64,000 nucleotides of DNA from Novosphingobium sp. ZN18A2 (GTDB lineage Bacteria; Pseudomonadota; Alphaproteobacteria; Sphingomonadales; Sphingomonadaceae), in the NCBI RefSeq assembly GCF_036784765.1, contig NZ_CP136651.1, positions 1,240,001-1,304,000 of the forward strand, read 5' to 3'. The translations under genes and the position numbers were made by a program. This document shows, piece by piece, positions 10,348 through 35,605 of this stretch. Numbering within the stretch: position 1 is the first letter of the stretch; each line of letters opens with the position of its first letter. The notes under the pieces were generated by a model. The model was not told where the DNA came from and did no database searches. It was given only the letters and a program-made list of their open reading frames with translations.

Positions 10348-10362
10348 TCTCCCGATTCTTTA

Positions 10363-10404: not shown

Positions 10405-10407
10405 TCC

Positions 10408-12833: not shown

Positions 12834-12847
12834 TGGGAAGGGGTGGT

Positions 12848-13312: not shown

Positions 13313-13342
13313 AGACCCTTCCTCTCAGGAGTTGCGGCCTCC

Positions 13343-13563: not shown

Positions 13564-13668
13564 AGGGGTGGAGTGCAGGTTTCAAACTGGCAATAGTCAC
13601 TGCCCAACCCCTTGCCCGGACTAGCCCGAAAGGCACTTCGGGGCGGCCAACGAAGAAGGAGTGGAGCA

Positions 13669-14241: not shown

Positions 14242-14260
14242 GCATCCTGAGGAGAGTCCC

Positions 14261-15391: not shown

Positions 15392-15454
15392 CCCGGGATT
15401 TTCATCGAGAAGTGACCCGGTTGGATGTGTGTTTCCCGCGATGAGCGGGTAGGG

Positions 15455-16234
15455 TCAAGCGGGTGATTGTTCCTTTCTGGTTTTGGGAGCCGCGGAGCTG
15501 GCCCGGAACCGGAAGCTGTCGTTGCCGGTTTCCAGGATGTGGCAGTGGTGGGTGAGCCGGTCGAGCAGTGCGGTGGTCATCTTGGCATCGCCGAACACGC
15601 CAGCCCATTCGCTGAAGCTGAGGTTGGTGGTGATGATCACGCTGGTCTGCTCGTAGAGCTTGGAGAGGAGGTGGAACAGCAGCGCCCCGCCTGACGGGCT
15701 GAACGGCAGGTATCCGAGCTCGTCGAGGATTACGAGGTCGAGGCGCAGCAGGCGCTCGGCAAGCTGGCCAGCCTTGTTCATGGCCTTTTCCTGTTCAAGC
15801 ATGTTGACCAGGTCGACGGTGGAGAAGAACCGTGCCTTCCTGCGGTGATGTTCCACGGCCTGTATACCCAGGGCAGTGGCCATGTGAGTCTTGCCGGTTC
15901 CAGGGCCACCGATCAGTACGACATTGTCAGCGCCATCGATGAACTCGCCACGGTGCAGTTGGCGCACCAGGGCCTCGTTCACTTCGCTGGATGCGAAGTC
16001 GAACCCGGCCAGATCCTTGTAGGCGGGGAACCGGGCGGCCTTGATCTGGTAGGCAATGGACCGGACCTCGCGTTCTGCCATCTCGGCCTTGAGCAACTGC
16101 GAGAGGATCGGCACGGCGGCATCGAAGGCCGGGGCGCCCTGGGCGATGAGATCGCTCACCGCCTGGGCCATGCCGTACATCTTGAGGCCGCGCAGCATGA
16201 CCTCCACGGCAGCGCTGGCGGGATCATGACGCAT
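15455..16234 (-). CDS. istB: IS21-family helper ATPase IstB
   Basis: AAA+ ATPase that assembles on target DNA and recruits the IstA transposase. It is 259 aa, the normal length. Walker A is [19 protein letters not shown] and Walker B is [15 protein letters not shown], with sensor region [14 protein letters not shown]. The ATG at 16234 was chosen because it overlaps the istA stop (ATGCGTCATGA), the usual translational coupling of istAB. Upstream in-frame ATGs lie inside istA. Confidence 0.95.
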
Positions 16235-17744
16235 GGCGCAGCCCCCGCAGATTATCATAGCGGCCGACGTCGGCGAGCGGCTCCTGGGCAAGGCGCAGGG
16301 CTTGTGGCGCGTCGATGGGTGATGCTGGCGGCGCCTTGCCGTCGGTCAGCCGATGCAGGATGTTGAGCACATGGGTCTTGGTCGGAACACCGCCCTCCAG
16401 CGCCAGTTCGACGGCGCACAGCACTGCCTGTTCGTCATGGTGCAGGACCAGCGAGAGGATCTCGACCATCTCCCGGTCGCCGCCGGGCCGCTTGAGCAGA
16501 TATCCCTGCAACTGGCGGAACGCATCGGGCATCTCGGTAAACGGCGCGCCGTTGCGCAGAGCGCCAGGCTTGCGCTGGATCACCGCCAGATAGTGCCGCC
16601 AGTCATAGATGGTCCGCCCGGGAAGATGATGGCCCCGCTCGATGATCCGCTCGTGCTCACACAGGAACCGGCCCTCGGCGGCGATGACGATCCGGTCCGG
16701 GTAAACCCGCAGGCTCACCGGGCGGTTGGCGAAGGAGGCCGGCACCGAGTAACGGTTGCGCTCGAAGTTTACGAGGCAGGTCGGCGATACCCGCTTGGTA
16801 TGCTCGACGAAGCCGTCGAAGGGCCGCCCCAGCGGCATCAGGCTGGCGACCTCCGCGGCATGCACATCGGCGATGCTGCCGGGCAACGCGCCATGTGCGA
16901 TCTGCCCCCATTGCGCGATGCAGCGTTCTTCGAGCCAGGCATTGAGCGCATCGAGATCGGGGAAGCTGGGCATCGGCTGCCATAGCCGGCGGCGGGCATC
17001 CTGGACGTTCTTCTCGACCTGCCCCTTCTCCCACCCCGAAGCCGGATTACAGAACTCGGGCTCGAACAGGTAATGGCTGGCCATGGCCGCGAACCGGGCG
17101 TTGACCTGTCGCGCCTTGCCACTGCCGATCCGATCCACCGCGGTCTTCATGTTATCGAAGATCCCGCGCTGCGGCACACCGCCGAGCACCCGGAAGGCCT
17201 GGGTCAGCGCATCGAACAGCATCTCGTGGGTCTGGAGCAGATAGGCCCTGACGATGAACGCCCGGCTGTGCGACAGCTTGGTGTGCGCCACCTGCAGCTT
17301 GGTCTGCTTGCCGGCAATGATCGCCCAGTCCTCGCTCCAGTCGAACTGGAACGCTTCGCCTGGCTGGAACACCAGCGGCACGAAGGTCCCGCGCCCGCTG
17401 GTCTGGGAATCACGCTGCCGGTCGGCCTTCCAGTTGCGCGCAAAGGCCGCAACACGGCCGTAGGAACCATCGAAGCCCAGGGCGACGAGATCGGCGTGCA
17501 TCTGCTTCACCGTGCGCCGTTGCTTGCGCGAGCGGCCAGCCTCGATCCGCAACCATCCCGCCAGCTTCTCGGCAAACGGGTCCAGCTTGCTTGGCCGGTC
17601 GGGCACCTTGAACCTGGGCTCAACCGCACCGCTGCGAAGATACTTGCGGATCGTATTACGCGAGAGACCGGTCCGTCGCTCAATCTCCCGGATCGGCATC
17701 CCATCACGGAAATGCCAGCGCCGGATTACGCTCAGTAACGCCAT
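16224..17744 (-). CDS. istA: IS21-family transposase IstA
   Basis: DDE transposase of IS21, 506 aa from the chosen start. It starts [25 protein letters not shown] followed by the [16 protein letters not shown]. The DDE core shows [12 protein letters not shown] (first Asp), the second Asp in [12 protein letters not shown], and the Glu in [23 protein letters not shown] 8 bases before the ATG at 17744 favours this start over 17804. It is uninterrupted and overlaps istB by 11 bases. Confidence 0.94.
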
Positions 17745-17856
17745 GTCGATCACTCCATAATCCCCCGACGCCAAAGCCAGGGGAAAGGTCAGAACATGGG
17801 TCACTTCTCAGTGGAAATTTATGCCTCTCCCGGGTCAACTCTCAACGGAAATCAAC

Positions 17857-17898
17857 AGCTGCGGAACTCGTCCGCGACTGGATTGCAAGGCAGGCCTA
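17857..17898 (+). pseudogene. Displaced 3' end of the alpha/beta hydrolase gene
   Basis: After the second copy of GCTGCGG, the sequence continues in the frame of the hydrolase gene and encodes ELVRDWIARQA followed by TAA at 17896-17898. This is the original gene end, separated from its body by the IS21 element. Confidence 0.85.
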
Positions 17899-17938
17899 AG
17901 CGGGGTTGTCGCCGCTACCCGCGACTTGCCTACGCCTC

Positions 17939-18583
17939 CTAGGCGCTACTGGTGGAATCCGCTTTTGCCGAGGCAATGACGGCGAGCATTGTCATTGCTT
18001 CCATGGAGTCGATCACTTCGGCATACTTGGCTTGAAGGTCTTCGAGATTTGCCTCATGCGCGGAAGGGCGTGTGTCGGCGCAACCGTCGCTGACGACGAA
18101 CGGTATGAAGCCATACTGCAGGGCATCCAGCGCGCTTGCACGCACGCAACCCGAAGTCGAAAATCCCGTCACAATCACGGTATCCACGCCGCGTTCGCGC
18201 AAGTCATCGGCAAGTCCGGTGTCGAAGAATGCCGAGGGGTACTGCTTGGTGATGACTACATCGCCTGGCGACGGCTGCAGATCGTCGGGAAACCGGGCAA
18301 GAGGGGAGCCCTCGACAAAAGCTTGCAGCGCGGGAACCTTGCGGAAGAAGTGTCCGCCATCGGACCCGTCCGGTTTGTAGGTTACGCCCGTGAAGACCAC
18401 AGGCGCACCCGCGCTTCGCGCTGCCGCCACCAGTTTCTTCGTAACGTCCAGGGCATGCGCGGCACTGTCTGCGAACAGCGGCGAGGACGGATCGAGATAG
18501 GCCTGCACCATATCCACGATCAGAAGGGCAGGGCGCTCTCCGGGCTGCAGATGACCCGAAAACGGCGCATCGTCCAAGGACAT
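17939..18583 (-). CDS. Isochorismatase-family cysteine hydrolase
   Basis: Cytoplasmic hydrolase of 214 aa in the isochorismatase/nicotinamidase/N-carbamoylsarcosine amidase superfamily. The catalytic triad is visible: Asp24 in LLIVDMVQAYL, Lys113 in ITKQYPSAFF and Cys146 in GFSTSGCVRAS, with the expected cis-peptide region before the Cys. TSGCVRAS and KQYPSAFFDT resemble N-carbamoylsarcosine amidohydrolases more than true isochorismatases. It is the last gene of the gntR-hmgL-hyuAB-caiB operon and its start overlaps the upstream stop by one base (TGATG). Next to hyuAB, an amide or carbamoyl hydrolysis is plausible, but the substrate is inferred only. Confidence 0.9.
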   Translation of the reverse strand: MSLDDAPFSGHLQPGERPALLIVDMVQAYLDPSSPLFADSAAHALDVTKKLVAAARSAGAPVVFTGVTYKPDGSDGGHFFRKVPALQAFVEGSPLARFPDDLQPSPGDVVITKQYPSAFFDTGLADDLRERGVDTVIVTGFSTSGCVRASALDALQYGFIPFVVSDGCADTRPSAHEANLEDLQAKYAEVIDSMEAMTMLAVIASAKADSTSSA

Positions 18584-19782
18584 CAGATGGCGCCTTGCGC
18601 GGCAAGTTCCGCCAGTTTGCCGGCGTCGTAGTTCAAGAGCCGTCCGTAGACTTCTGCATTGTCCTGTCCGATCGAGGACGGGGCAGGGCGACGTACTTTG
18701 CTGGGCGTGTCCGAGAACTTCGGAAAGGCGTTCTGCATCTTCAGCGGACCCCAGCGTTCGGTCTCTACTTCGACGATGGCATCACGTGCGGCGAAATGCG
18801 GATCTTCGAGCATTTCAGGTGCGCGGTACATCTTTCCCGCCGGAACCGAATGTTCGATCATCAGCGCCTCGACTTCGGCGACGGTAAGCGTTGCCGTCCA
18901 GTTCTCTATCAACTGGTCCAGCTCGACCTGGTTGCGGCCACGCGAAACGTGATCGTGATAGCGTTCGTCCTTTGCCAGCTCGGGCCGCCCCATCGCCGCG
19001 CAAAGCCGCGTGAACACGGCGTCCTGGTTCGCGCCGATCAGGAACTCGCCATCCTTGCAACGATAAACGTTGGAGGGCGCGATGCCGGGAAGGACGGAGC
19101 CCGATCGCTCGCGGATGTACCCCGAGCGATCGTATTCCGGGACCACGCTTTCCATGACCTGCAGGACGGCTTCATACAGCGCGCTGTCCACGACCTGACC
19201 GCGTCCGGTTCGGTCGCGCGCCTGCAGCGCTGCAAGAGCGCCCATGCAGCCATAGGTTGCCGCCAGCGTGTCGCCGATCGAAATACCCATCCTGCTTGGT
19301 GCCCGGTCGGGGTCGCCCACTATATAGCGCCAGCCTCCCATTGCCTCGCCGATGCCGCCGAAACCTGCGCGAGCCGAATAGGGGCCGGTCTGACCATATC
19401 CGGAGACACGGACGATGATCAGCCGTGGATTGATCGCGTGAAGCGCTTCCGGGGACAGACCCCATTTTTCCATCGTTCCGGGCTTGAAGTTCTCGATCAG
19501 GATATCCGCTTTCGACGCAAGCTCGCGCGCGATCTGCTGTCCTTCGGAAATACGCAGGTTGGCGGTGACGCAGAGCTTGTTGCGGGAAACTACTTCCCAC
19601 CACAGCTTGTCTTCGCCGCGCCCCCAGTTGCGCATGGGATCGCCGATCTCCGGCGGTTCGACCTTGATGACCTCGGCGCCCATGTCTCCCATAAGCTGTC
19701 CGCAGAACGGCCCGGCGATGAGCTGGCCCAGTTCGATGACTCTGAGGCCTTGCAGGGCGCCCTCGTCCATCGGGCTGGTCAT
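18583..19782 (-). CDS. Family III (CaiB/BaiF) CoA transferase
   Basis: Transfers CoA between a CoA thioester donor and a carboxylic acid. It shows the family N-terminus LRVIELGQLIAGPFCGQLMGDMGAEVIKVEPP, the NKLCVTANLR and NPRLIIVRVSGYGQTGPY motifs, and the region GISIGDTLAATYG with the likely catalytic Asp that forms the acyl anhydride. The length from MTSPMDEGALQGL is 399 aa, as usual. This ATG forms an ATGA overlap with the hyuB stop, which is why I prefer it to 19848. The position in the operon suggests activation of the acid produced or consumed by HyuAB, possibly ahead of the HMG-CoA lyase-like enzyme. Confidence 0.94.
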   Translation of the reverse strand: MTSPMDEGALQGLRVIELGQLIAGPFCGQLMGDMGAEVIKVEPPEIGDPMRNWGRGEDKLWWEVVSRNKLCVTANLRISEGQQIARELASKADILIENFKPGTMEKWGLSPEALHAINPRLIIVRVSGYGQTGPYSARAGFGGIGEAMGGWRYIVGDPDRAPSRMGISIGDTLAATYGCMGALAALQARDRTGRGQVVDSALYEAVLQVMESVVPEYDRSGYIRERSGSVLPGIAPSNVYRCKDGEFLIGANQDAVFTRLCAAMGRPELAKDERYHDHVSRGRNQVELDQLIENWTATLTVAEVEALMIEHSVPAGKMYRAPEMLEDPHFAARDAIVEVETERWGPLKMQNAFPKFSDTPSKVRRPAPSSIGQDNAEVYGRLLNYDAGKLAELAAQGAI

Positions 19783-21653
19783 CGGGTCGTCTCCGTCTGA
19801 TGCCATTTCGGCTGGACCGGTGCCGGCAATCCGGTTTCCTGCTGGCAACGGGTTCGCAGAACCGCGATGCCCGGACCGAAGTCGAACAGCGGAAGGTCGG
19901 CGCGGCTGGCTTTCATTTCAGCTCTCAATTTCTTTGTTTCATCTTCGTTTACAAGTCCTTCGGAGGTCACGCTCACGCCATACGCGCGGGAACCTTCGGC
20001 CGTGCACAGCCCTTCGCGTACTTCGCGGGCGACGAGAGCCGGATCGCGTTCGAGTGGATCGCCCCAGCCGCCGCCACCCCAGGTAATGAAGTGCAACTGG
20101 TCACCAGCGCGCACTTCGACGTCCTCGACCTTGTTGCCGACGATTTCGGTCGAACCATCCGCACGTTCCATGATCTTGCGAGCGCGCATGCCGGGATGGC
20201 CGCCATTAACCCCCCAGGGCGGTACGAACCAGCGATCATCGTGGATGGCAATGCGCCCATCGGCAAGGAAGCGATAGGTCATGTGGATGCCGTTGCCGCC
20301 GCGGTGAAGCCCCGCGCCGCCGCTGTCAGGTTCGGTTTCGTAGCGTTCTATGCGAAGCGGAAAGTATCGCTCGAGAAATTCGTTGGGAACATTGGTGAAG
20401 CCGGGCCACAGCGAATGACCGTCCGGTCCATCGCCAAGCGGCCGGCCCGGAATGCCGCCAAATCCAATCTGGAACAGCTGGAACCAGTCGCCCTTGGCGT
20501 CGAGGCCGGAATAGAAGAGGTGCGGGGAAGAACTGAAGCCTGCGGCGTTGAGGAACTCGGGCGTCTTCTGGCCGAGCAATCCGCCAAGAATGTCGAATAT
20601 CCTTCCCAAAGCATGTGTGCGGCCCGACAAGGCAGCCGGGAACTTGGGCTTCAGAAGCGATCCATCGGGAATGCGAACGTCGATCAGATCGTAGAAGCCG
20701 TCATTGAACAGGATCTGCGGATCGAAGACCATGATCATGTAAATCCCGAAGAACATCTTGAACATGTTCTCGTTGAGATAAAAATTGATCGAGGCCGCGC
20801 TTTGCGGATCGGTCCCTTCGAAATCGAGAATGACCCGATCCCCGTCGCGCCACATCGTGCACTTGATCCGGTACGGGCCGAACCCCATGCCATCGTCGCA
20901 GATGTAGTCTTCGAAGCTGACCGGCTCCTCGGCAACGGCCATGGCTATGAGAGACTTCATCGCGCGGTGGTTGCGAGCCAGCAATTCCTGCGTCGCGGAA
21001 ACATAGACGTCATCTCCGAAGCGTTCCGCCATCTCGATCACGCGGCGCGCTGCGACACGGCAGGAAGCCACCAGCGCATTCAGGTCGGCAAGGCACCAGT
21101 CGGGCTTGCGCGTCTGGTGGAGGACCAGTTTCATCAGGTCTTCGTTGTATTCTCCCTTTTTCCAGAGCTTGACCGGCGGAATCCTGACACCTTCCTCGAA
21201 GATCGAGTGCGCGTTGATCGGCATCGAGCCCACGACCTTGCCGCCTATGTCGCTCTGGTGGCCGAACATGGCGGTGTAGGCCAGCAAGCGTCCGTCCTTG
21301 AAAACCGGCAGCAGCACCAGCCAGTCGTTGGAATGACTGATCGCCCCTTCGCAGCTGTATGGGTCGGAGAGGAAGATCATGTCTCCATCCTCGATCGTGC
21401 CTTCGAAGGAATCGAGGAAGCCGCCGATGAAGCTGCCGAACTGGCCTACGATCATCTTGCCGGACGGATCGGCGATCAGGGGAAAGGCGTCGCCCTGTTC
21501 GCGGATGCCGGGCGACATGGCCGTCCTGACCAGAGTCGCGTCCATCTCTATGCGTGCGTTCCGCAAGGCGTTCTCGATGATGTCGAGCGTTACCGGGTCG
21601 ATCTCGACACGACCGAACGGCGCGGGATTGGTTTCAACGATCCGAGCGGGCAT
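19779..21653 (-). CDS. hyuB: Hydantoinase B/oxoprolinase family protein
   Basis: Beta-type subunit of ATP-dependent hydantoinase, oxoprolinase or ketone-carboxylase complexes. The 624-aa protein starts with the family segment DPVTLDIIENALRNARIEMDATLVRTAMSPGIREQGDAFPLI and carries ISHSNDWLVLLPVF, DLNALVASCR, and GGAGLHRGGNGIHMTYRF. HITWGGGGWGDPLERDP near the end is highly typical. It normally works with HyuA, whose gene lies 3 bases upstream. Whether the complex hydrolyses a cyclic imide or carboxylates a ketone cannot be decided from the sequence. Confidence 0.94.
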   Translation of the reverse strand: MPARIVETNPAPFGRVEIDPVTLDIIENALRNARIEMDATLVRTAMSPGIREQGDAFPLIADPSGKMIVGQFGSFIGGFLDSFEGTIEDGDMIFLSDPYSCEGAISHSNDWLVLLPVFKDGRLLAYTAMFGHQSDIGGKVVGSMPINAHSIFEEGVRIPPVKLWKKGEYNEDLMKLVLHQTRKPDWCLADLNALVASCRVAARRVIEMAERFGDDVYVSATQELLARNHRAMKSLIAMAVAEEPVSFEDYICDDGMGFGPYRIKCTMWRDGDRVILDFEGTDPQSAASINFYLNENMFKMFFGIYMIMVFDPQILFNDGFYDLIDVRIPDGSLLKPKFPAALSGRTHALGRIFDILGGLLGQKTPEFLNAAGFSSSPHLFYSGLDAKGDWFQLFQIGFGGIPGRPLGDGPDGHSLWPGFTNVPNEFLERYFPLRIERYETEPDSGGAGLHRGGNGIHMTYRFLADGRIAIHDDRWFVPPWGVNGGHPGMRARKIMERADGSTEIVGNKVEDVEVRAGDQLHFITWGGGGWGDPLERDPALVAREVREGLCTAEGSRAYGVSVTSEGLVNEDETKKLRAEMKASRADLPLFDFGPGIAVLRTRCQQETGLPAPVQPKWHQTETTR

Positions 21654-21656
21654 CGT

Positions 21657-23714
21657 TCAGGCTCCTTCGACCGGGTTGATCAGGATGTTGCCGACAGCGT
21701 CGACTGTCGCAACGCAACCGGCTTCGACCAGGGTGGTGGAATCCATTTCGGTGACGATGGCCGGTCCGGGAATGACGTCTCCAGCACGAAGCTTCGCCCG
21801 GTCATATATGACCGCCTGCTGTTCGCGGCCATCCATCCACAACGCATGATCGCGGATCTTTGCCGCGGCAGGATCGCCGTTTCCGCGCTCCAGCGCCGCA
21901 GCCGATAGCTCGGGCGCCTGGCCGAGGGCCACGGCTCGCAAGTTCACGATTTCGTGCGGCGTATTCATGTTGAACGTGAACAGCCGCAAATGTTCCGCAT
22001 CAAAACGTTCGACGATGGCCTCAATGCCGCCTTCGCGCAGCGTGGCCTGGTCGATCGTCAACGGCACTTCAAAAGCCTGGCCTGCATAGCGCACATCGAC
22101 TTCAAACAGGCTGGTCATGGCGTCTTCGGCGATTCCGTCAGCTGCGAGTTCGGCCCTTGTCTGGGCCGACATTTCGTCAAGCAGGGCAACAAGTTCTTCC
22201 GCTTCGGTATCTTGCGCCAGGCGGCTGAAGCTGCGCGCCGTTTCGGTGCGCATCCGCGTGGTTGCGTCGCCCAGAGCGCAAAGCACGCCGGGCGAGACTG
22301 GCGATATGGCCGGCCAACTGCCCATCAGCCTGGCAACGGCGTTGACGTGAAGGGGGCCGGCGCCGCCGAAGCCCATCAGCGCGAAATGTCGCGGATCGTA
22401 GCCCTGTTGCACGGAAATCATGCGCAGGGCGCCGAACATGTTTTCGTTGACGATGTCGATGATGCCTCTGGCGGCCGCCATCAGGTCGACGCCCAACGCA
22501 TCGGCGACGGTCTGGACCGCCTTCTTCGCGCCTTCGCGATCAAGTTTGAACGAACCGCCCAACAGGTCTTCGGGAAGATAGCCGAGCACCACATTCGCGT
22601 CGGTCACGGTTGGTTCGGTCCCTCCCTTGCCGTAGGCGACCGGGCCGGGCACCGCGCCGGCCGATTGCGGGCCAACCCGCAATGCCCCGGTAAGTTCGGG
22701 GACGTAGGCGATCGAACCGCCGCCCGCGCCAACCGTCTTAACATCCAGGGCTGAGGCCCGCACCGAAAGGTGGCCGACTTCTGTGGTCCGCTGCCTGCGC
22801 GGCTCAAGGTTCTCGATGAGCGCGACGTCAGTGGACGTACCGCCGACGTCCAGTGTCAGGATGTTGCGCAGGCCTGCGTTCCTGGCCACCCAAAGTGCAC
22901 CGGTCACGCCGCCGGCTGGTCCTGACATCAAGATGTTGACCGGATGTTCCTCGGCCTTTTCCGCAGACATCAGGCCGCCGTCCGATCTCAGCAGCGACAG
23001 CTTTCCGGTTATGCCTTCGTCCTGAAGACGGTTGCGCAGATTCGCCACGTATTTGCCAACCACGGGCCTGACCGCCGCATTTGCGACCGTCGACAAGGTC
23101 CGCTCATATTCCTGCATCTCGGGGAGCACCTGATGGCTCAGCGAAATGGGCACACCGGGCAGTTCTTCAGCCGCGATTTCTCCGATCCGGCTCTCGTGCG
23201 CGCCGTTTACATAGGCGTTGATCAGGCTGATCGTGATGGCTTCAACACCATTGTCGCGCAGCTTGCGCAATGCGGACCGGACATCGTCTTCGTCGATCGG
23301 GCGGACCTCCGATCCGTCGGCCGCGATCCTGCCCTTGACGGCTACCGTGTCTTCAAGCGCTGCTAGTGGTTGCGGCTTGGGCCAGATGATCCATGCCGCC
23401 AAACCGCCCGGCACGTAACTGCGCGCAATCTGCATGATGTGACGGTAACCTTCGGTGGTGACTAGGCCGACACGCGCACCTTTGCCTTCAAGTACCGCAT
23501 TCGTGGCGACGGTCGTGCCGTGCAGGAAGTATTCGATTTCCGACGGGTTGATCCCCGCCTTCGCCGTGATCGCGCCGACGCCCTCGAGGATGCCCTCGGA
23601 ACTGTCATGCGGCGTCGATGGCGTCTTGTGGCGCCAGAAAGCGCCGGTTTCGTCGTCGAAAAGCAGCAGGTCGGTAAATGTCCCGCCGACGTCAACACCG
23701 AGCCGGTAACGCAT
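21657..23714 (-). CDS. hyuA: Hydantoinase/oxoprolinase A family protein
   Basis: ATP-binding subunit of the hydantoinase/oxoprolinase/acetone-carboxylase family, 685 aa. The ASKHA-type phosphate motif opens the protein (RLGVDVGGTFTDLLLFDDE), and the second nucleotide motif is ILTLDVGGTSTDVALIE. Further signatures are FLHGTTVATNAVLEGKGARVGLVTTEG, MSGPAGGVTGALWVA, and LMGFGGAGPLHVNAVARLMG. It couples ATP hydrolysis to ring opening or to carboxyphosphate chemistry. The start overlaps the upstream lyase stop by one base (TGATG). Confidence 0.95.
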   Translation of the reverse strand: MRYRLGVDVGGTFTDLLLFDDETGAFWRHKTPSTPHDSSEGILEGVGAITAKAGINPSEIEYFLHGTTVATNAVLEGKGARVGLVTTEGYRHIMQIARSYVPGGLAAWIIWPKPQPLAALEDTVAVKGRIAADGSEVRPIDEDDVRSALRKLRDNGVEAITISLINAYVNGAHESRIGEIAAEELPGVPISLSHQVLPEMQEYERTLSTVANAAVRPVVGKYVANLRNRLQDEGITGKLSLLRSDGGLMSAEKAEEHPVNILMSGPAGGVTGALWVARNAGLRNILTLDVGGTSTDVALIENLEPRRQRTTEVGHLSVRASALDVKTVGAGGGSIAYVPELTGALRVGPQSAGAVPGPVAYGKGGTEPTVTDANVVLGYLPEDLLGGSFKLDREGAKKAVQTVADALGVDLMAAARGIIDIVNENMFGALRMISVQQGYDPRHFALMGFGGAGPLHVNAVARLMGSWPAISPVSPGVLCALGDATTRMRTETARSFSRLAQDTEAEELVALLDEMSAQTRAELAADGIAEDAMTSLFEVDVRYAGQAFEVPLTIDQATLREGGIEAIVERFDAEHLRLFTFNMNTPHEIVNLRAVALGQAPELSAAALERGNGDPAAAKIRDHALWMDGREQQAVIYDRAKLRAGDVIPGPAIVTEMDSTTLVEAGCVATVDAVGNILINPVEGA

Positions 23715-24643
23715 CAGGCAATTTCCTTTCCATGTTCCATCCGTGGCGGGAAGGGGCGAGCCCGGGAAACCATTGCTGGCAGATCCTTGCCCATGATTTG
23801 GCCGAGCCAGCCGTTGATCTCGATTAGCGCATCGAGGTCCAGGCCAGTCGAAATTCCTGCTCTTTCAAGCATGTAGACAACATCTTCGGTTGCGACGTTG
23901 CCGGCCGCGCCCGGGGCGAAAGGGCACCCGCCAAGGCCGCCGATCGAGGCATCCACGATGCTTGCACCGGCACCTGTCGCCGCCCAGACGTTGGCAAGCC
24001 CGGTGCCCCTGGTATTGTGGAAATGAACCCGTACCGGGATCGGAGCGATTGCGCGGCCAACGCGTTCTACCAATCGTGAGACATGGGCAGGGTTTGCAAC
24101 GCCGATCGTATCCGCCAGGCCGATCTCGACGGGACCGGACCGCGCGATGGCTGTTGCCATTGCCAGGATGCGGTCTTCTGCCACTTCTCCTTCGAACGGA
24201 CAGCCGAAGCTTGCACCGATCGTGACCTGCCCGGTGAGGCCAGCCGCCTTCGCGCGCTGGACGATCTCGCAGCTTGCTTCGACTGAGCCGTCGCTGGTTT
24301 GCCCCTGGTTCGCCATGGCGAACTTGTCGGTAGCCACTGCCACTGCGCCAAGCTGGTCGATCCGGCCGGTGGCGACGGCACGTTCCGCGCCGCGCAAGTT
24401 CATGACGAGACCAATGAAAGTCACGTCATCGCGTTCGGGCAGGTCTTCGCAAACGGCTTCTGCATCGGCCATCTGCGGAACCGCTCGCGGATTGACGAAG
24501 CTGGTCACCTCGATCCGCCGAGAGCCGGCGGCAATGGCCCGTTCGATAAGCGACAGCTTCGCGGAAGTGGAGATCACGGCCTTTTCGTTCTGTAAGCCGT
24601 CGCGTGGGCTTACTTCGACCATCTCGATGTATTTTGTATACAT
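23714..24643 (-). CDS. Hydroxymethylglutaryl-CoA lyase-like protein
   Basis: TIM-barrel acyl-CoA lyase of the HMG-CoA lyase/DRE-TIM group, 309 aa. It has the active-site loop VEVSPRDGLQNEKA with the catalytic Arg-Asp pair, the metal-binding pair in VHFHNTRGTGLANV, and the catalytic-Cys loop GGLGGCPFAPGAAGN. All key residues of true HMG-CoA lyases are present, so it could cleave HMG-CoA or a related 3-hydroxy-3-methylacyl-CoA to acetyl-CoA plus a keto acid. Its operon partners (CoA transferase, HyuAB) are not those of leucine degradation, so the substrate is probably different. Its ATG overlaps the gntR stop (TAATG). Confidence 0.92.
   Translation of the reverse strand: MYTKYIEMVEVSPRDGLQNEKAVISTSAKLSLIERAIAAGSRRIEVTSFVNPRAVPQMADAEAVCEDLPERDDVTFIGLVMNLRGAERAVATGRIDQLGAVAVATDKFAMANQGQTSDGSVEASCEIVQRAKAAGLTGQVTIGASFGCPFEGEVAEDRILAMATAIARSGPVEIGLADTIGVANPAHVSRLVERVGRAIAPIPVRVHFHNTRGTGLANVWAATGAGASIVDASIGGLGGCPFAPGAAGNVATEDVVYMLERAGISTGLDLDALIEINGWLGQIMGKDLPAMVSRARPFPPRMEHGKEIA
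24635..24642. promoter_or_regulatory. TGTATACA palindrome at the hmgL start codon
   Basis: TGTATACA, flanked to read AATGTATACAAAA on the minus strand, covers codons 1-3 of the lyase gene. It repeats the core of the palindrome upstream of gntR at 25351-25362. It could be an internal operator or simply the coding consequence of Met-Tyr-Thr. Confidence 0.3.
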
Positions 24644-25320
24644 TATTCAGCGACCTCGCTGATCGGCTCAAATGCAGGGCGGGACTGATGCGCATCGGCA
24701 TAGGCATGAAAGGCGCGCCGGATGTGCGCAGCCATGACGGCCTCTGCCCAGGCGCCGTCCCGGCGTGAAAATGCGGCTATCAGTTCCTCATGCTCGCTAT
24801 ACGAGCGCAAGAGCTCTTCTCGCCCGTAGTGGTAGGCTGTGCGCCACACGACAGGCTGTTCGACGAGGGTGTTCAGCAAAGCCTCGAGTCTGCGCGATCC
24901 GGCGGCCGCCAGGATGATGGCATGGAATTCCCTGTTGCCGTCGAGGAAGCCCAGGGTGTCCGGTTCGGGCTGGTTTATGGCTTCGCGGATAGCCGAGTTA
25001 CAGGCGCGCAGCCTTTCAAGCGTGCCGTCATCCATCGCCATTGCTGCGCGCCTTGCCGCAAGCGATTCGACCATGGCTCTCAACTCGAATGTGTCGGCGA
25101 CGTCCTCCAGGGTCCAGTCGGCAACGAAGGTTCTTTGCGCTTCGTTGCGCTTTACGAAAAGTTCTGCCTCCAGCCTTCGGAGTGCTTCGCGCACCGGGGT
25201 GCGGGAAACGCCGCAGCGTTCGGCCAGCGCCTCTTCGCCAAGCTGGGAACCTGGCTGGAGCTCTCCGGACAGGATCAGTGCGCGGATCAGTTCATAAGCC
25301 CTTTCGGATGCGCGCGACAC
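24643..25320 (-). CDS. GntR family regulator (FCD/FadR type)
   Basis: Ligand-responsive repressor/activator, 225 aa. The winged HTH shows SERAYELIRALILSGELQPGSQLGEEALAERCGVSRTPVREALRRLE, and the C-terminal FCD domain contains FELRAMVESLAARRAA, FHAIILAAAGSRRL and the metal-ligand-like EHEELIAAF and HIRRAFHAY. The start is GTG at 25320, preceded by GGAGAGGACC; the much longer ATG-initiated frame upstream crosses the promoter and is not conserved-looking. It heads the catabolic operon and is divergent from a TonB receptor, so it likely controls both through the palindrome between them. Confidence 0.93.
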   Translation of the reverse strand: MSRASERAYELIRALILSGELQPGSQLGEEALAERCGVSRTPVREALRRLEAELFVKRNEAQRTFVADWTLEDVADTFELRAMVESLAARRAAMAMDDGTLERLRACNSAIREAINQPEPDTLGFLDGNREFHAIILAAAGSRRLEALLNTLVEQPVVWRTAYHYGREELLRSYSEHEELIAAFSRRDGAWAEAVMAAHIRRAFHAYADAHQSRPAFEPISEVAE

Positions 25321-25350
25321 GGTCCTCTCCAAAATCCTTGACCAAACCGG

Positions 25351-25362
25351 ATTGTATACAAT
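25351..25362. promoter_or_regulatory. ATTGTATACAAT palindrome, probable GntR operator
   Basis: A perfect 12-bp palindrome lies 31 bases upstream of the gntR GTG and about 100 bases upstream of the divergent TonB receptor gene. FCD-type GntR regulators often bind TTGTATACAA-like sites. It is well placed to regulate both directions. Confidence 0.65.
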
Positions 25363-25458
25363 AGGCTGCGATTCTAGCAAGCCGCAACAGGCAATCCGGA
25401 CAGCTTTCAGGGGAGAAGCTGCGGCGGGCATGCACTCAAGACCAACAGGGGGTCTTTC

Positions 25459-27975
25459 ATGCGTTCCACTAATTGGTTGATCTCGGCGTCGGTTGCCGTT
25501 TTTGCAATGACCGGTTCTCCGGCGATGGCGCAGGATGCAGGCGCTGCGGCGACGAATGATGGCGATCCTTCGGCAATCATCGTAACTGCGCGGCGGCTTA
25601 GCGAGCGTTTGCAGGACGTGCCGGCCTCGGTTTCCGTCCTGACGGCGGCCGACCTCCAGACCACGGGGGCAGAACGGGCGCAGGACTTCGTCCAATTGAC
25701 GCCCGGCGTCACCATCGTGACGGGAACCGCCGAAGCGGGCGATACCCAGATCAACATTCGCGGCATCAACGGCGCGCGCGATGCGGAAAGTTCGGTCGCC
25801 CTTGTGGTGGACGGAATTCTAAAGACCAATACTGCTCAGCTGAACCAGCAGCAGGGTACGTTGCAGCAGGTTGAAATTCTCAAGGGACCGCAAGGTGCGA
25901 TCTATGGCCGCAATGCGGCTGCTGGCGCGATCGTGGTTCAGACGTTGAAGCCTGGATCGGAATTCGAAGGCGCCGCCCGCGCTTCATATGGCGAAAACAA
26001 TACCTTCATGGGAACCGCTTACGTCGCGGGTCCGCTTGCCGACAATGTGGGCGCCGTTCTGTCGGGTTACTATTCTTCGACCGACGGATTCTTCAAGAAC
26101 ATCTATCTCAATGATTCCAGCACGGTAGACCAGAAGAAGGACTGGTCTGTCGACGGTCGGGTGATGGTAGGCCGCGACACCGCGACGCAGCTGGATATCA
26201 AGGCTCGTTACGGCGAGTTTCACGGTGCATCCCTGCCGTTTAACGCCGCGTTCCATTTACCGGGGTTCGCTGCGGTGAACCCTGCCTTCAACGAGAATGT
26301 GAACGCTCATCCGTTTCATTTCTACAACAACATTCCGGCGACCAACGACCAGACGAGTTTCGATGTGTCGGCCAAGCTCGATCAACAACTGGGCGGGATG
26401 AAGCTGGTTGCCTGGCTGCTCTATTCCAACGTCAAACAGGATCTTGTTGCAGATGGAACCTCGGCGGACTTCGGCCGCTACATTAGCGCAGTAGATCCAG
26501 CAGTTGATTCATCGGTGAACGCTTGTTTCAATTCGACTGCGGCGCTGACCGGATTTCCGGTCAATCAACCCGCCTTCATCGGTCAGATTCCGGTGCCGTT
26601 CCTGTTCGCGCCGGCGAATGGATCGACCTTCGGTCCTTACAGTCCGACGACATGCGACGGTACACAATACCAGGTTCGTAATCAGGAGGACATAAGCGGC
26701 GAAATCCGGCTGATGTCCGATCACGGCGGCCCCCTGCAATGGCAAGTGGGAGCCTATTACCTGCACATCAACCGCAAGGTCGGTGTGAGCCTTGGCGCCG
26801 ATAGCGGGCAGGGCGTAATCAAGCAGCTCTACAATCCGCCCACCTCGGTGAATCCGACCTCGCTGCTACTTGCGGACAATTTCAAGACCGACGTTTACGC
26901 AGGCTTCGGTTCGCTTGAATGGAAGCCTTCTGCGCAGTTTCGCGCGGGTCTTGCGCTGCGTTATGACATCGAAGACAGGAAATCGGCATCGCTCGTGCCG
27001 ACTGCGACGGATCCCTTCACCGGCGGCCCTATCAATCCGGGGCAGGCATTCGGCCCGCTTACGCCGAAATCGGCTCGGTTTGAACAGTTCGAACCCAAGA
27101 TCACTTTGAATTGGGAGCCTTCACCCAACGTGAACCTCTATGCCAACTGGGGCATCGGCTTCAAATCCGGCGGGTTCAACAACCAGGGTTCCGCTGCGTT
27201 GATCGATGCGAACTTCAACCAGTTTATCAATGCGGGCGTGACGATAAACGACCAGTACAAGAAGGAGTGGTCGAGCGCCTGGGAGGCGGGCATCAAGGGC
27301 AGCATGCTCGACGACCATCTGACTTTCGATCTTGCAGGATATTATACCCGCGTTCACGATATGCAGTTCTTCGAGTTCTTCGTCGGAAGTTTCGGCCTGC
27401 TGCGCGTCGTTTCGAATATTGACCTTGTCGACATCAAAGGCGCGGAGGCGAACGTAACCGCCAGGCTTATTCGTAACTGGAAGGTGTACGGCTCACTCAA
27501 CGTTACCGACAGCAAGATCCTGAAGAACAGCTCGCGGCCCTATACGGTTGGCAACAAATCACCCTATACCGCCGACTACACGATCAACCTGGGCACGGAA
27601 CTCGATCCTGATCTGACCGATACGATCAAGCTGGTCGTGCGAGCGGATTACCGGATCACCGGGCCGACCTGGTTCCATACGGTTCAGAACCAGACGCGGC
27701 CGACACTGTTTTCCGGACTTCTGCCCATTTCCGCTCTGGCCCTGCCTTCGTCCGTAGGCGATGCGAACTTCGCGGCGGCCCGCAGGGATGCCTTCGGTGT
27801 CCTGAACCTTCGCGCCGGCCTGAAAACCGATCACTTCACCATAACGGTATTCGCCGACAATGCTCTCGACCGGAAATACATTGCCGAGGCCATTCCGGCG
27901 ATCGAGTTCGGCGGATCGTTCATCTCTCCGGGAGCGCGCCGCACCATCGGTGTGGAAATCGGAGCAAAGTTTTGA
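25459..27975 (+). CDS. TonB-dependent outer membrane receptor
   Basis: Outer-membrane 22-strand barrel for energised uptake, 838 aa. It has a Sec signal peptide (MRSTNWLISASVAVFAMTGSPAMAQ, cleavage after residue 25), a TonB-box-like IIVTARR, and a plug domain from ERLQDVPASVSVLTAADL through QINIRGINGARD to LKGPQGAIYGRNAAAGAI. The barrel ends in the typical aromatic residue (IGAKF). GGGG before the ATG supports the start. In sphingomonads such receptors often import aromatic or plant-derived compounds rather than siderophores. The divergent catabolic operon suggests that it imports the substrate of that pathway. Confidence 0.96.
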   Translation: MRSTNWLISASVAVFAMTGSPAMAQDAGAAATNDGDPSAIIVTARRLSERLQDVPASVSVLTAADLQTTGAERAQDFVQLTPGVTIVTGTAEAGDTQINIRGINGARDAESSVALVVDGILKTNTAQLNQQQGTLQQVEILKGPQGAIYGRNAAAGAIVVQTLKPGSEFEGAARASYGENNTFMGTAYVAGPLADNVGAVLSGYYSSTDGFFKNIYLNDSSTVDQKKDWSVDGRVMVGRDTATQLDIKARYGEFHGASLPFNAAFHLPGFAAVNPAFNENVNAHPFHFYNNIPATNDQTSFDVSAKLDQQLGGMKLVAWLLYSNVKQDLVADGTSADFGRYISAVDPAVDSSVNACFNSTAALTGFPVNQPAFIGQIPVPFLFAPANGSTFGPYSPTTCDGTQYQVRNQEDISGEIRLMSDHGGPLQWQVGAYYLHINRKVGVSLGADSGQGVIKQLYNPPTSVNPTSLLLADNFKTDVYAGFGSLEWKPSAQFRAGLALRYDIEDRKSASLVPTATDPFTGGPINPGQAFGPLTPKSARFEQFEPKITLNWEPSPNVNLYANWGIGFKSGGFNNQGSAALIDANFNQFINAGVTINDQYKKEWSSAWEAGIKGSMLDDHLTFDLAGYYTRVHDMQFFEFFVGSFGLLRVVSNIDLVDIKGAEANVTARLIRNWKVYGSLNVTDSKILKNSSRPYTVGNKSPYTADYTINLGTELDPDLTDTIKLVVRADYRITGPTWFHTVQNQTRPTLFSGLLPISALALPSSVGDANFAAARRDAFGVLNLRAGLKTDHFTITVFADNALDRKYIAEAIPAIEFGGSFISPGARRTIGVEIGAKF

Positions 27976-28176
27976 GAAACCAAGCTGAATGAGCCCTAGG
28001 TAGCACTTGCAAAGGGCGCTCCCTCAACCTCGATCAGACAAACATCGTATCTGACGTTAATGGCATTTGCGATGCATCTGATCGAGGATGGGGGCGCAAG
28101 GGTAGGGGGCATTGCACTTAGGGGGCGTGTCAGAAGAATTTCACCCGGGTGCACAAAGGGTAGGGCTGGGCCATGC

Positions 28177-28398
28177 CCCGTCGTCGAACGCGGGATTGAT
28201 ATCTGCCACCAAACCGTGCGCTATTGGTGGACCAGATTAGGGCCGATGTTTGCCGTTGACCCCAATGCGATGCAGTGCTTCCGGTGGATGAAGACGCTGC
28301 AGAAATTCGCTTCTGTTCACGCATCGATCCTCAACCACTTTTCACAGGAACGCCATCTCGTCAGCAGGCCGCTTTCCGGGAGCCTTGCGTTCGGTTGA
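28177..28398 (+). pseudogene. IS6-family transposase relic
   Basis: The frame reads ERGIDICHQTVRYWWTRLGPMFAVD, corresponding to the N-terminal HTH region of IS6 transposases, and then jumps to TLQKFASVHASILNHFSQERHLVSR, the C-terminal region. The whole DDE domain between them is missing. It is a deleted, dead copy and differs in sequence from the intact IS6 at 8945. The surrounding stretch 27976-28624 contains nothing else recognisable. Confidence 0.7.
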
Positions 28399-28600
28399 GC
28401 GCAGTTTTCATCCGACCGACACCTCCCGCCGGAGGATACTGCCCTCGGGATGTCCCCTTAGAAGCGGACGACAGGTCAGCATATTCATGTTTCCGTCCCC
28501 TGTTCGACCTTCCGGCGGTTCGTGCAAAGTCGCCGTTTTATTACACAAGTGTTTGTTAAAAAGCAAAAAAACATCTTTAGGCCAGATCAATAAGCTCGCA

Positions 28601-28624: not shown

Positions 28625-29491
28625 TTAATGCCGGCCGGCTTGCGATCCGGCCGCCAGTTCCACGACTTCTTCGGTAATCTGCTCCTGCCGCAGGCGGCGG
28701 GCCTCTGCGATCAGCGTGTCGTGCCTTTGCGCGATGTTGTTCCGGGCAGCCGCCATGGCGAGCATCCGCGCTTCGTTTTCGGCGGCGAACGACATCACCG
28801 CCGCTTCGCCAAGTTCTGCAAAGACATATTCGTCCACCAGCCGGGCGAGCAGGTCGGGCGCGGAAATCTGGATCAGCGGAGGGGCGCTGCTGCGCACTTC
28901 GTGAAAGCGCAAGAAATCGAATGGCAACAGGCGACGGTTGACCGTTCGTTGCGCCTCTCCACTTTCCGCAGGCAGCTGGTGGACGATGTAGAGTTCGGTT
29001 CCCGGACGCCCCGAAAGGCGGTTGAACAGGTTGTCTGCCAGCCGGTTGGCCAGCGTCGAGGTTTCGTCGATATGGGCGGCCATCGGCAACGACCAGGCGG
29101 GATCGAATGCACGTTCGCGGGCTGCGGCAAGCGCGCGGTCGCCCACTATGACCAGTTCAGTGTGGCGGTCACCCGGCGCCTCCAATAGGGCGGTAGCGGC
29201 GTTCAGTACCTTCGTGTTGAACGCGCCGACAAAACCGTGTTCCGATCCGAAAGCGATAACGGTGCGCGATTGCGCTTCGTCCTCTCCAGCAAGCCGGGGC
29301 GCCGTCGGGAGCAGGGCGAGTGCCTGCGCTATGGCGGCACCGACCGTACCAGCATAGGACTGGACGCCTGCCAGCCGCCCCGCGGCTTCCTGCAACCGCG
29401 TGGCAGCGATCGCGCGCATCGCGCCGACGACCGATGAAAGCTGGCCGACGCTTTTGATCCGCGCCTCTATCGCGTCCAGCCGCTCAGCCAT
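28625..29491 (-). CDS. atpG: N-type ATPase gamma subunit
   Basis: Central stalk subunit linking F1 catalysis to c-ring rotation, 288 aa. The N-terminal helix [36 protein letters not shown] and the C-terminal helix around [45 protein letters not shown] are the coiled-coil parts of gamma. The middle is divergent from standard AtpG, typical for N-ATPases. It is the last gene of the operon and overlaps atpA by 8 bases. Confidence 0.88.
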
Positions 29492-31022
29492 CGGCCAGTT
29501 CCGTCACCAGCGCGGCGAGCGCGGAGAGCGTCTGGTCGTCCAGCTTTTCGCCGCCCTCGATCCTTGCGGCAAGGCCCGGCATCCGGGTTGGCAGCGTTGC
29601 GGCAATCCGTTCGCGCAGGACGGGAATTGCGTCGGGCGCAACGGGGTCGAGCGCGCCTTGTCCAAGCGCGGCGAGAAGCGCGACTTCGGCCTCTACCGGC
29701 ATGGCCGCGAAACGGCTTTGCACCAGCACTGCGCGAATGCGCTCTCCGCGCGTCAGGACAGGGCGGAAGCGCGTATCGGTTATGCCACCGAAGCGCGTGA
29801 ACATTTCAAGTTCCTGGAATTGCGCGTAATCCAGCCTTACGCGCCCGGAAACCTGGCGAAGCGCGGGGCGCTGCGCCTTGCCGCCGACTCGGCTGACGCT
29901 GAGCCCGACATCGACCGCCGGGCGCCGGTTCGCCGCGAACAGCTTTGAATCCATCACGATCTGGCCATCGGTGATGGAGATGAGGTTGGTGGGAATATAG
30001 GCGGAAAGGTTGCCGGCATCGGTCTCCGCGATCGGCAGTGCGGTCAGCGAACCGCCACCCAGTTCGGGCGCAAGCCGTGCCGCGCGTTCAAGCAGGCGGG
30101 CGTGGAGGTAGAAGATGTCGCCCGGATAGGCTTCACGCCCCGGCGGTTCGCGCGTCAGCAACGCCAGTTCGCGGTGCGTTGCCGCGTGCTTGGTCAGGTC
30201 GTCGATCACGATCAGCGCATGCCCGCCCTTGTCGCGCACGTGCTCTGCCATGGTGAATCCGGCAAAGGGCGCGATCCATTGGAGGCCCGGTGCCGAGGCG
30301 GCGGGGGCGATGACGAAGATGCAGCGTTCGAACGCCCCGTGGGTGCGCACCGCTTCGATGGCGCGTTCGATCGCCGAGGCTCGCTGCCCTACCGCGACGT
30401 AGACGCAGACCATGTCCGAATGCTTCTGGTTGATGATCGCGTCTAGCGCGAGCGATGTCTTGCCCGTTGCGCGGTCGCCGATGATCAGCTCTCGCTGTCC
30501 GCGTCCGAGCGCGAACAACGCGTCGACTACCAAAACACCGGTTTCCACCGGTTCACTTACCAGCGCGCGCTCGATGATCGCGGGGGCGGCGCGTTCCACC
30601 GGCATCCAGCCGTCGGGCCTGATCGGGTCGCCTTCGTCCAGCTGTCGGCCCAGCGGATCGACCACGCGGCCAAGCAGCCCGTCGCCAACCGGCACCTGCA
30701 CGACTTCGCCGGTTCCGGACACGCGCGTACCCGCTTCGATCGCGTCGGCTTCATCGAGGATGATCGCACTGATCGTTTCCTCGTCGAGCGCGAGGGCAAG
30801 TCCGGTCTTGCCGCCTTCGAAGTGCAGCAGCTCGTTCAGCCGGACGTCCGGCAGGCCGGAAATATGCGCGATGCCATCGCCCACCTGCACCACGGTTCCG
30901 AACGAGCGGGCCTGCGGCGCAAGGTCAACCGTGGCGAGGGCGCGGCGTCCCTGCGCAAGCCAGCGCGCGTCTTCCGCCGCGGCTGGCGCGCCGCCTTCTG
31001 CGCGTTCCTTATCCCCCTTCAT
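29484..31022 (-). CDS. atpA: N-type ATPase alpha subunit
   Basis: Non-catalytic nucleotide-binding F1 subunit, 512 aa. The P-loop is [19 protein letters not shown]. Other alpha hallmarks are [47 protein letters not shown], and [45 protein letters not shown]. It starts 14 bases inside the end of atpF. The short N-terminus lacks the long membrane-targeting helix of some alphas. Confidence 0.95.
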
Positions 31023-31767
31023 CGGATTGCTCCGGTTCCGCCGCGAGGCCGGCCGCTATGCGACCGAGCCCATCGCGCAGGCTGGCATCGATCTCCACGC
31101 CGCCCCCGGCCAGGCGCAGGCCCGCAATCAGCGCCGGATCGACACGCGGGGTAAAGCTTGCCTGCTTGCCAAGGTTCCGCTTTATCATCGCGTCAAGCAT
31201 GGCGCCCTCCGCCTTGTCGAGCGGCCTTGCCACGGTAAGCTCCGCCCGTGCCGGATCGCCCGAGATGGCATCGCGCGACGGTTGCGGAAGTGCCTTCAAT
31301 GCCTTCTCGAAGCCATTGAAAAATGAAGAAACTGGCAAACCCCTTGCCGGGCCTTCCAGCAGCTTATGCGCGATGTCGATAGCCAGCGCATTGGCGCGGT
31401 GTCCGACGCGTGCATTCTCCGTGTGCTTCAGCCGGGTGATCTGCTCTGCCGCTTCCGACCTTTGCCGGGCGATCTCCGCCTCGGTATCGCGGAGCAGAGC
31501 CGCGCGCTGCTTTTCGGCTTCCTTGCGCGCATCCTCGACTATCGCCTTGCGGTCTATCACTACGGAATCGCGGCGCGCCTGTGCCTCGCGGTCTGCCTGT
31601 TGAGCCGCGTCTCTGGCGCTGGCCGCATCATCGAGCAGCCTCTGCGCCTCTGCCTGCCGCTCTTCCACGATCCGGGCCATCGGACGGAACAGGAAGCGCC
31701 CGAGGATGGCCACCAGCACAAGCAGGTTGACCGCCTGCAGCACCAGTGTCCACCAGTCGATTTGCAT
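31009..31767 (-). CDS. atpF: N-type ATPase b subunit with delta-like C-terminus
   Basis: Peripheral stalk subunit, 252 aa, longer than a usual b subunit (about 160). One N-terminal transmembrane helix ([19 protein letters not shown]) is followed by a long charged coiled coil ([26 protein letters not shown]...). The C-terminal segment [33 protein letters not shown] resembles the C-terminus of delta/OSCP (DPSLIGG...DGSLR). Since the operon has no separate delta gene, b and delta functions are probably fused. The ATG at 31767 gives the usual [11 protein letters not shown] start. Confidence 0.9.
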
Positions 31768-31781
31768 GACTGCCGTGCCCC

Positions 31782-33314: not shown

Positions 33315-35605
<2,291 letters not shown>

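Follow-up and report, generated by a model that had tools for sequence, protein, structure and literature searches.

A conserved hyuAB, amidase, CoA-transferase and lyase operon of Novosphingobium sp. ZN18A2, predicted to act in cyclic-imide catabolism

What compound would a bacterium take up in order to treat it with an ATP-dependent ring hydrolase, an amidase, a CoA-transferase and a lyase of the 3-hydroxy-3-methylglutaryl-CoA (HMG-CoA) lyase type? The question is raised by a locus of Novosphingobium sp. ZN18A2, whose genome is one contig of 3.30 Mb and of which we analysed a stretch of 64,000 nucleotides (NZ_CP136651.1, positions 1,240,001 to 1,304,000; hereafter the window, in whose coordinates the features are given). 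We consider it moderately likely that six minus-strand genes and the TonB-dependent receptor gene facing them form one GntR-controlled unit for the catabolism of a cyclic imide. The receptor would import the substrate, HyuAB would open the imide with ATP to a half-amide, and a NicF-like amidase would turn the half-amide into a diacid and ammonia. The CoA-transferase would then activate an alkylmalic acid to its alkylmalyl-CoA, which the HMG-CoA-lyase-like enzyme (HMGL) would split into an acyl-CoA and a 2-oxo acid. We infer these enzymatic steps, the uptake by the receptor and the repression by GntR with its relief by a ligand from sequence. The features are as follows.

17939..18583, minus strand: NicF-like cysteine amidohydrolase of isochorismatase fold, predicted maleamate-type half-amide amidase (Pfam, 141 bits; PDB; alignment)
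18583..19782, minus strand: class III (CaiB/BaiF) CoA-transferase (Pfam/NCBIfam)
19779..21653, minus strand: HyuB, predicted metal subunit of an ATP-dependent cyclic amidohydrolase (Pfam/NCBIfam, metal-ligand motif)
21657..23714, minus strand: HyuA, its predicted ATP-binding subunit (Pfam/NCBIfam, PDB, motifs, tree)
23714..24643, minus strand: HMGL, predicted alkylmalyl-CoA lyase (NCBIfam PRK05692, motifs)
24634..24643, no strand: second operator-like site TTGTATACAT, on the HMGL start codon (sequence inspection, clade conservation)
24643..25320, minus strand: GntR/FCD-family regulator, predicted ligand-responsive repressor (Pfam/NCBIfam)
25352..25361, no strand: perfect palindromic operator-like site TTGTATACAA, between gntR and the receptor gene (genome search, clade conservation)
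25459..27975, plus strand: TonB-dependent outer-membrane receptor, predicted substrate importer (Pfam/NCBIfam)

Gene set, conservation and regulation

A first-pass annotation of this DNA had described six minus-strand genes that overlap by 1-4 bp or lie 3 bp apart and face a TonB receptor. All seven genes are found where it had placed them, and a Pfam search returned the matching domains (Isochorismatase, CoA_transf_3, Hydantoinase_B, Hydantoinase_A, HMGL-like, GntR with FCD, and TonB receptor). The spacing agrees as well: the amidase and CoA-transferase genes overlap by 1 bp (18583), the CoA-transferase gene and hyuB by 4 bp if the former starts at ATG 19782 (M23 of a longer open reading frame), hyuB and hyuA are separated by 3 bp, and hyuA and the lyase gene, like the lyase gene and gntR, overlap by 1 bp. 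Other CoA-transferase starts (the longer frame from a TTG, or a boundary at 19788) were judged unlikely. The most likely start of gntR is GTG 25320, and the receptor gene starts at ATG 25459.

The gene set recurs in many genomes. In the family of the window genome, represented by 397 genomes of our set (the own family), HyuA was found at E <=1e-150 in 110, and of these 110 genomes 99 hold HMGL and 99 the amidase among the matches listed (Fisher p 2e-53 and 5e-75, respectively). Around the 102 HyuA matches of at least 65% identity, HMGL lies within 12 kb in 84 cases, the amidase in 79, both in 72 and neither in 11. This tally counts distances in whole kb; it omits 10 HMGL rows of 42-44% identity, which keeps 128 of 137 genomes, and amidase rows weaker than ~1e-40, which keeps 103 of 121. 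A scan of a genome collection, of which the best 80 of at least 587 matches were taken, gave 80 named loci from several phyla. In 100 loci whose HyuA falls into one clade with that of the window (the tree is described below), a CoA-transferase lies within 10 kb of HyuA in 74, HMGL in 66 and the amidase in 66, and the 76 full loci, those that extend 8 kb or more to each side, gave 58, 51 and 51. These counts from the gene-neighbourhood search bear out the conserved, probably co-regulated catabolic unit that the first-pass annotation had suspected. The set was met in Pseudomonadota, Actinomycetota, Chloroflexota, Acidobacteriota, a Geobacillus plasmid and haloarchaea. For comparison, eight HyuAB loci from outside the clade were read from the gene tables of a plasmid collection, which are incomplete: CoA-transferase, HMGL, LeuCD and a lyase of the isocitrate lyase (ICL) type are listed in none, and an isochorismatase is listed in one, within a nicotinate-type cluster. 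One HyuA piece (L132), which shares 68% identity with the Acidiphilium plasmid protein, comes from a metagenome-assembled genome labelled Klebsiella pneumoniae and possibly belongs to a mis-binned contig.

The palindrome TTGTATACAA occurs as an exact copy only once in the genome, at 25352-25361. Seven sites with at most two mismatches lie in the window, which is not unusual (shuffle mean 3.8; 10 of 100 shuffles reach that many), and further sites are not enriched in the genome as a whole, where 11 occur at no more than one mismatch, against 16 for a reversed control pattern. Across the 100 clade loci, on the other hand, TGTATACA occurs 70 times (median of 9 over 64 palindromes of the same composition, among which it ranks third), and 60 of these occurrences lie no more than 5.5 kb upstream or 0.2 kb downstream of the HyuA start. 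At least two sites stand near or upstream of hyuA in 26 of the 100 loci, mainly of sphingomonads but also in metagenome-assembled genomes of Roseiflexus (L063) and of a proteobacterium (L069); seven loci have a single site. This conservation, rather than the count in the window, supports the putative shared operator region that the first-pass annotation had placed between gntR and the receptor gene. GntR would act at the two sites to repress the operon and the divergent receptor gene alike, and a ligand would relieve the repression.

Predicted hydrolases and exchangeable cleavage modules

HyuA carries the motifs DVGGTFTD, DVGGTSTD and GAVPGP. Among solved structures it scores highest with the N-methylhydantoinase 7hk5 (475 bits), followed by the 5-oxoprolinase 6yra (405 bits) and acetone carboxylase (229 bits). 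Its best NCBIfam model is the caprolactamase alpha subunit at 555 bits, and acetophenone carboxylase gamma reaches 338 bits; HyuB reaches 211 bits with its caprolactamase model, so that both subunits miss the cut-off of 1000 bits per subunit. D55, H107, D110 and H132 of HyuB match, by motif and spacing, the metal ligands of the caprolactamase subunit CapB, which mutation showed to be required according to the parts of PMC8453981 cited here. HyuB has no adjacent cysteines and hence no vicinal disulfide of the kind the same source reports for caprolactamase and notes as absent from hydantoinases too. The operon has the two-gene hyuA-hyuB layout of the Hyd branch, with no gene for a gamma or epsilon subunit. 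As the criteria given for that branch in section 7 of PMC5214803 are subunit number and gene order, known carboxylases having three or more subunits, HyuAB is predicted to be a Hyd-type hydrolase and not a ketone carboxylase.

A HyuA tree of 114 rows, built by a quick method, places the window protein in one clade of 100 (SH-aLRT 100, stem 0.9), where its nearest named relatives are from Erythrobacter and other sphingomonads. Eight control HyuA proteins, including an acetone carboxylase subunit, fall outside the clade, as does an oxoprolinase-like frame of the window genome (1227 aa, 32% identity to HyuA); the control branches are long. The phylogeny that had been proposed as a check in the first-pass annotation therefore does not group HyuA with the 5-oxoprolinase-type protein tested, which is one representative on a long branch. 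The tree kept 105 of 107 rows, two of fewer than 600 or more than 900 residues being dropped; L070 and L071 gave none, L056, L134, L136, L138 and L139 lie outside the clade, and L164-L173 and L186-L213 are not counted in the 100.

The amidase has a D24-K113-C146 triad, which is kept throughout an alignment of 11 proteins. Its PDB matches are 26st, 3ot4/3uao and 1nba, the last being weaker than 3ot4/3uao. It is 48%, 48% and 38% identical to three amidases of nicotinate-type clusters, and in the clusters of both 48% relatives an FAD monooxygenase, an alpha/beta hydrolase and an Asp/Glu racemase stand beside the amidase. From this context, we take these amidases to be NicF, that is, maleamate amidases. 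Three of the four relatives that were fetched with their context from outside the HyuAB clade loci lie in nicotinate-type clusters, although the window amidase itself does not, and by context it is predicted to resemble the NicF type. Public annotation names two of the nicotinate-cluster amidases (L180 9914-10603 and L181 9944-10582) N-carbamoylsarcosine amidohydrolase, likely a misnomer. On a Tistrella plasmid (L179 6003-10615) an amidase of 58% identity accompanies an arylmalonate-decarboxylase-like gene, gntR, a CoA-transferase, HMGL and a NIPSNAP gene, with HyuAB not listed within 10 kb, which ties the amidase directly to the CoA-transferase and HMGL pair.

The CoA-transferase has a CoA_transf_3 domain (418 bits), and all seven of its NCBIfam matches are below cut-off, the nearest models, succinate-glutarate and succinyl-CoA:mesaconate CoA-transferase, both far under it. 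HMGL carries the motifs PRDGLQ, HFHNTRG and GLGGCP, and a leucine-catabolic (liu) context was not seen around it. A CoA-transferase together with HMGL or a LeuA-type lyase lies within 10 kb of HyuA in 53 of the 76 full loci. An ICL/PEPM-type lyase is found in seven, three of them alongside the CoA-transferase and HMGL module, and a CitE-type lyase in two, both alongside that module; the ICL-type members carry a K[KR]CGH motif in 14 of 14 cases, and the CitE-type representative scores 214 bits with citE and 152 bits with the itaconate enzyme RipC, both under cut-off. LeuC (11 of 76) and PrpD-type proteins (5 of 76), families of alkylmaleate hydratases, are found within 10 kb in 16 of the 76.

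The exchange is seen most fully in Halobacteria, where a HyuA sharing 71% or more identity with that of Haladaptatus is present in 29 of 292 genomes. We fetched 28 of these 29 matches, the 29th being L096, and had 32 haloarchaeal loci in all, 31 of them distinct as L208 duplicates L058. The hyuA-hyuB core is present in the 32 and the amidase in 29. Behind it stands either an ICL-type lyase (15 loci, 14 distinct, with KRCGH in all 15) or a CoA-transferase with a LeuA-type lyase (11 loci), and the two co-occur in none of the 32; in the other six a CoA-transferase gene lies upstream (three), a LeuA-type gene lies upstream (two), or neither does (one). The ICL-type representative resembles methylisocitrate and dimethylmalate lyases (PDB 3fa3 match) and is below the PrpB cut-off. 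Common substrates of these lyase families are (alkyl)malates or their CoA esters. That two unrelated molecule-splitting modules stand behind the same front end suggests a common product, and the substrate class which the lyase families have in common points to (alkyl)malates. A CitE-like enzyme that cleaves both citramalyl-CoA and HMG-CoA is described in the part of PMC6689899 cited here.

Parallel sets occur in some relatives. In one own-family genus a second operon of LeuC, LeuD, HMGL and CoA-transferase adjoins the first (L164, L166); to this L164 adds an FAD enzyme, and L166 a CE4/PuuE-type protein and another amidase; in L165 the FAD enzyme is seen, the fetched stretch not holding the remaining second-operon genes. 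An Acidiphilium plasmid has LeuCD, an FAD enzyme and two polysaccharide-deacetylase-family genes near HyuAB, the amidase, CoA-transferase and HMGL; one of the deacetylase-family genes was scored with the PuuE model and reached 95 bits, far under cut-off. Relatives of CE4 include, according to the part of PMC9304392 used here, the cyclic imide hydrolases of Pseudomonas putida and fungal HxnM.

Weighing the imide reading against its alternatives

A number of observations weigh against the cyclic-imide reading, and several of them lend themselves to another. No recognised lyase lies within 10 kb in 19 of the 76 full loci, so that HyuAB of the clade may serve further substrates. An adjacent hydratase is absent from the window operon and, within 10 kb, from 44 of the 53 full loci with a CoA-transferase and an HMGL or LeuA-type lyase, which refutes the idea that every set brings its own. 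The fourth metal ligand of HyuB is Asn in place of His in all three haloarchaeal proteins aligned (L057, L058, L059). Among the own-family matches listed, 46 of 133 HMGL and 24 of 107 amidase matches have no HyuA within 12 kb, and HyuA has no match in 29 of the 128 genomes holding HMGL. HMGL exceeds the curated HMG-CoA lyase cut-off (PRK05692, 292 bits against 246), leaving room for ordinary HMG-CoA as its substrate. The top structure of the amidase, 26st (146 bits; profile 253), is labelled N-carbamoylsarcosine amidohydrolase, which would fit a ureide. Lastly, eleven sphingomonad loci (for example L037 5878-6636) hold a hydantoin/allantoin-racemase-like gene, which is absent from the window operon and hints at a chiral substrate instead of a flat maleimide. 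The racemase-like gene was placed on the receptor side of gntR, and 10 of the 11 loci add one or two SnoaL-like genes.

The last two observations, along with the match of HyuA to the N-methylhydantoinase, would suit a route in which HyuAB opens a hydantoin or other cyclic ureide, the product is cleaved by an N-carbamoyl amidase to an amino acid with loss of CO2 and ammonia, and a side chain is left to the CoA-transferase and lyase. Because of the 26st label this route stays compatible with the similarity, and the likening of the last gene to N-carbamoylsarcosine amidase in the first-pass annotation is understandable, even though the nicotinate-cluster context points to the NicF-like function. 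However, the malate-type lyase modules and LeuCD or PrpD require a dicarboxylic acid and not an amino acid, three of the four amidase relatives fetched with their context belong to nicotinate-type clusters, and Pfam and NCBIfam searches of the window operon gave no domain for the processing of sarcosine or amino acids. We therefore regard the ureide route as unlikely.

A lactamase of the caprolactam or pyrrolidone type, with the amidase hydrolysing a second amide group elsewhere in the molecule ahead of its cleavage, would agree with the best NCBIfam model of HyuA, yet the score is little over half of that required, HyuB lacks the vicinal cysteines (as do the hydantoinases), and the linkage of two C-N hydrolases, seen in 66 of the 100 clade loci, is better explained by an imide. 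This we hold to be improbable. More doubtful by far is a housekeeping role in leucine or HMG-CoA metabolism, with HMGL as the HMG-CoA lyase of the genome and HyuAB an unrelated hydrolase that happens to share its operon. No other place in the genome matches HMGL at E <=1e-60, the two further HMGL-domain matches belonging to larger frames (588 and 561 aa), the genome has three large carboxyltransferase-domain genes, and there are the genomes with HMGL and no HyuA match; against this stand the presence of HMGL in nine tenths of the own-family genomes with HyuA (99 of 110) and the haloarchaeal LeuA- and ICL-type lyases, which would not serve leucine. That HyuAB carboxylates a ketone to an acid that is then CoA-activated and cleaved is barely credible: HyuAB is distantly related to acetone and acetophenone carboxylases, but the gamma/epsilon gene missing from the operon is present at the acetone carboxylase control, the control lies far outside the HyuA clade on a long branch, and two subunits are fewer than known carboxylases have.

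The first-pass annotation had offered two routes, ring opening of a cyclic imide or ureide with carbamoyl hydrolysis, and ketone carboxylation followed by CoA activation and aldol-type cleavage. Each appears half right: ring opening with amide hydrolysis survives from the first and CoA activation with aldol-type cleavage from the second, whereas carbamoyl hydrolysis and carboxylation are disfavoured, and the favoured cyclic-imide reading, partly supported in this respect, combines the surviving halves.

Candidate substrates, related systems and genomic setting

For the cyclic-imide unit, the need for a hydratase would depend on the ring. An unsaturated diacid would be hydrated by LeuCD or PrpD in some loci and by a general LeuCD in others; relatives with LeuCD or a PrpD-type protein beside the set would carry this step out themselves. 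In the window strain, a maleimide-derived diacid would rely on a general LeuCD, for which one of the genome's two aconitase-family genes is presumed to code. A malimide-type imide already has the hydroxyl and would need no hydratase.

A bolder case, to which we give a small chance, is that the operon forms the missing end of tetrapyrrole recycling, importing maleimides or succinimides derived from chlorophyll or haem and converting them to central metabolites. Candidates would be hematinic acid, methylethylmaleimide and their dihydro forms. Opened hematinic acid would formally be 2-methyl-cis-homoaconitate; hydration of the LeuCD or PrpD type and cleavage by a PrpB-like ICL or by CoA-transferase with HMGL or LeuA would then give pyruvate and glutarate or glutaryl-CoA, or propionyl-CoA and 2-oxoglutarate. 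The enzyme families this scheme calls for are those found beside HyuAB, and genes linking the operon to tetrapyrroles were not seen at the loci examined. According to the part of PMC7318184 cited here, leaves contain hematinic acid derived from chlorophyll; simple maleimides went undetected in that study, which cites older reports of them from senescent leaves and lake sediments; this mixed evidence on natural maleimides is why we do not make tetrapyrrole imides the main claim.

If the cyclic-imide reading is right, the labels "hydantoinase", "HMG-CoA lyase", "CoA transferase" and "N-carbamoylsarcosine amidohydrolase" in many genomes would mark one imide-assimilation pathway of unusual design, in which a single ATP-driven front end is joined to C-C cleaving back ends that can replace one another. 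The pathway would offer a class of substrates open to direct testing, allow these annotations to be corrected and suggest a possible route by which natural maleimides are broken down. The parts belong to known families. In the open-licence literature, searches covering this gene set, maleimide degradation, imidases and plasmid pJE1 returned nothing on such a pathway, neither the gene combination nor the exchangeable back end being found there, in line with the first-pass annotation, which knew no described pathway with exactly this set.

Several known systems resemble parts of the proposed scheme. Bacterial NicF represents the closest amidases identifiable by context. It hydrolyses the maleic half-amide, which in its pathway arises by oxidative pyridine cleavage and deformylation; the pathway is not known to involve HyuAB or a C-C lyase. 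Itaconate degradation uses a CoA-transferase, a hydratase and a citramalyl-CoA lyase, the C5 diacid being activated and split as citramalyl-CoA; the window differs in having a lyase of the HMGL type and a diacid predicted to derive from an imide. Anaerobic nicotinate fermentation employs 2,3-dimethylmaleate hydratase (LeuCD-type) and dimethylmalate lyase (ICL-type) and is not known to have a HyuAB-amidase front end; the likeness lies in a LeuCD-type hydratase and an ICL-type lyase acting on an alkylmaleate and alkylmalate. Fungal nicotinate catabolism by HxnM and HxnN (PMC9304392) likewise leads from a cyclic imide over a half-amide to a hydroxy-dicarboxylate by imidase and then amidase, although its imidase is CE4/PuuE-related, its amidase FAAH-like and its ring six-membered, and in contrast to the window operon the part of that paper cited here mentions no CoA-transferase or C-C lyase. 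CapAB (PMC8453981, in part) and 7hk5 share with HyuAB the ATP-dependent ring hydrolase family, the ATP motifs and the D-H-D-H metal site. HyuAB differs from CapAB in scoring below the curated level, in having no vicinal disulfide and in its other partners, and 7hk5 is a fused chain of 1288 aa.

Further gene contexts were noted among the loci. A second HyuAB context (L033, L041, L045, L082, L114, L121, L126, L169-L171) variously holds a methyltransferase-like protein (c12), FAD enzymes, a PrpD-type protein and an aldehyde dehydrogenase. The c21 protein (275-341 aa, with a 129-aa piece in L078) lies beside or near the set in L076, L078, L085, L088, L091 and L122, and Pfam and PDB searches with its representative gave no match; c12, c21 and c36 recur near the set.

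The catabolic unit probably sits in an acquired island, as it has a low G+C content (0.604-0.606 in 8685-15368 and 17858-28100, compared to 0.646-0.656 outside) and is surrounded by an IS21-type element and by integrase- and transposase-like remnants. The island-like stretch spans 8595-28400 and opens with a tRNA-Ser (8595-8684), followed by an integrase-like N-terminal remnant; the IS21-type element (15369-17857) has perfect inverted repeats of 30 bp, and the transposase-like C-terminal remnant lies at ~28190-28395. Beyond it, at 28625-35265, stand ATP synthase-type genes (gamma, alpha/beta, B and c domains), whose arrangement resembles that of an N-ATPase.

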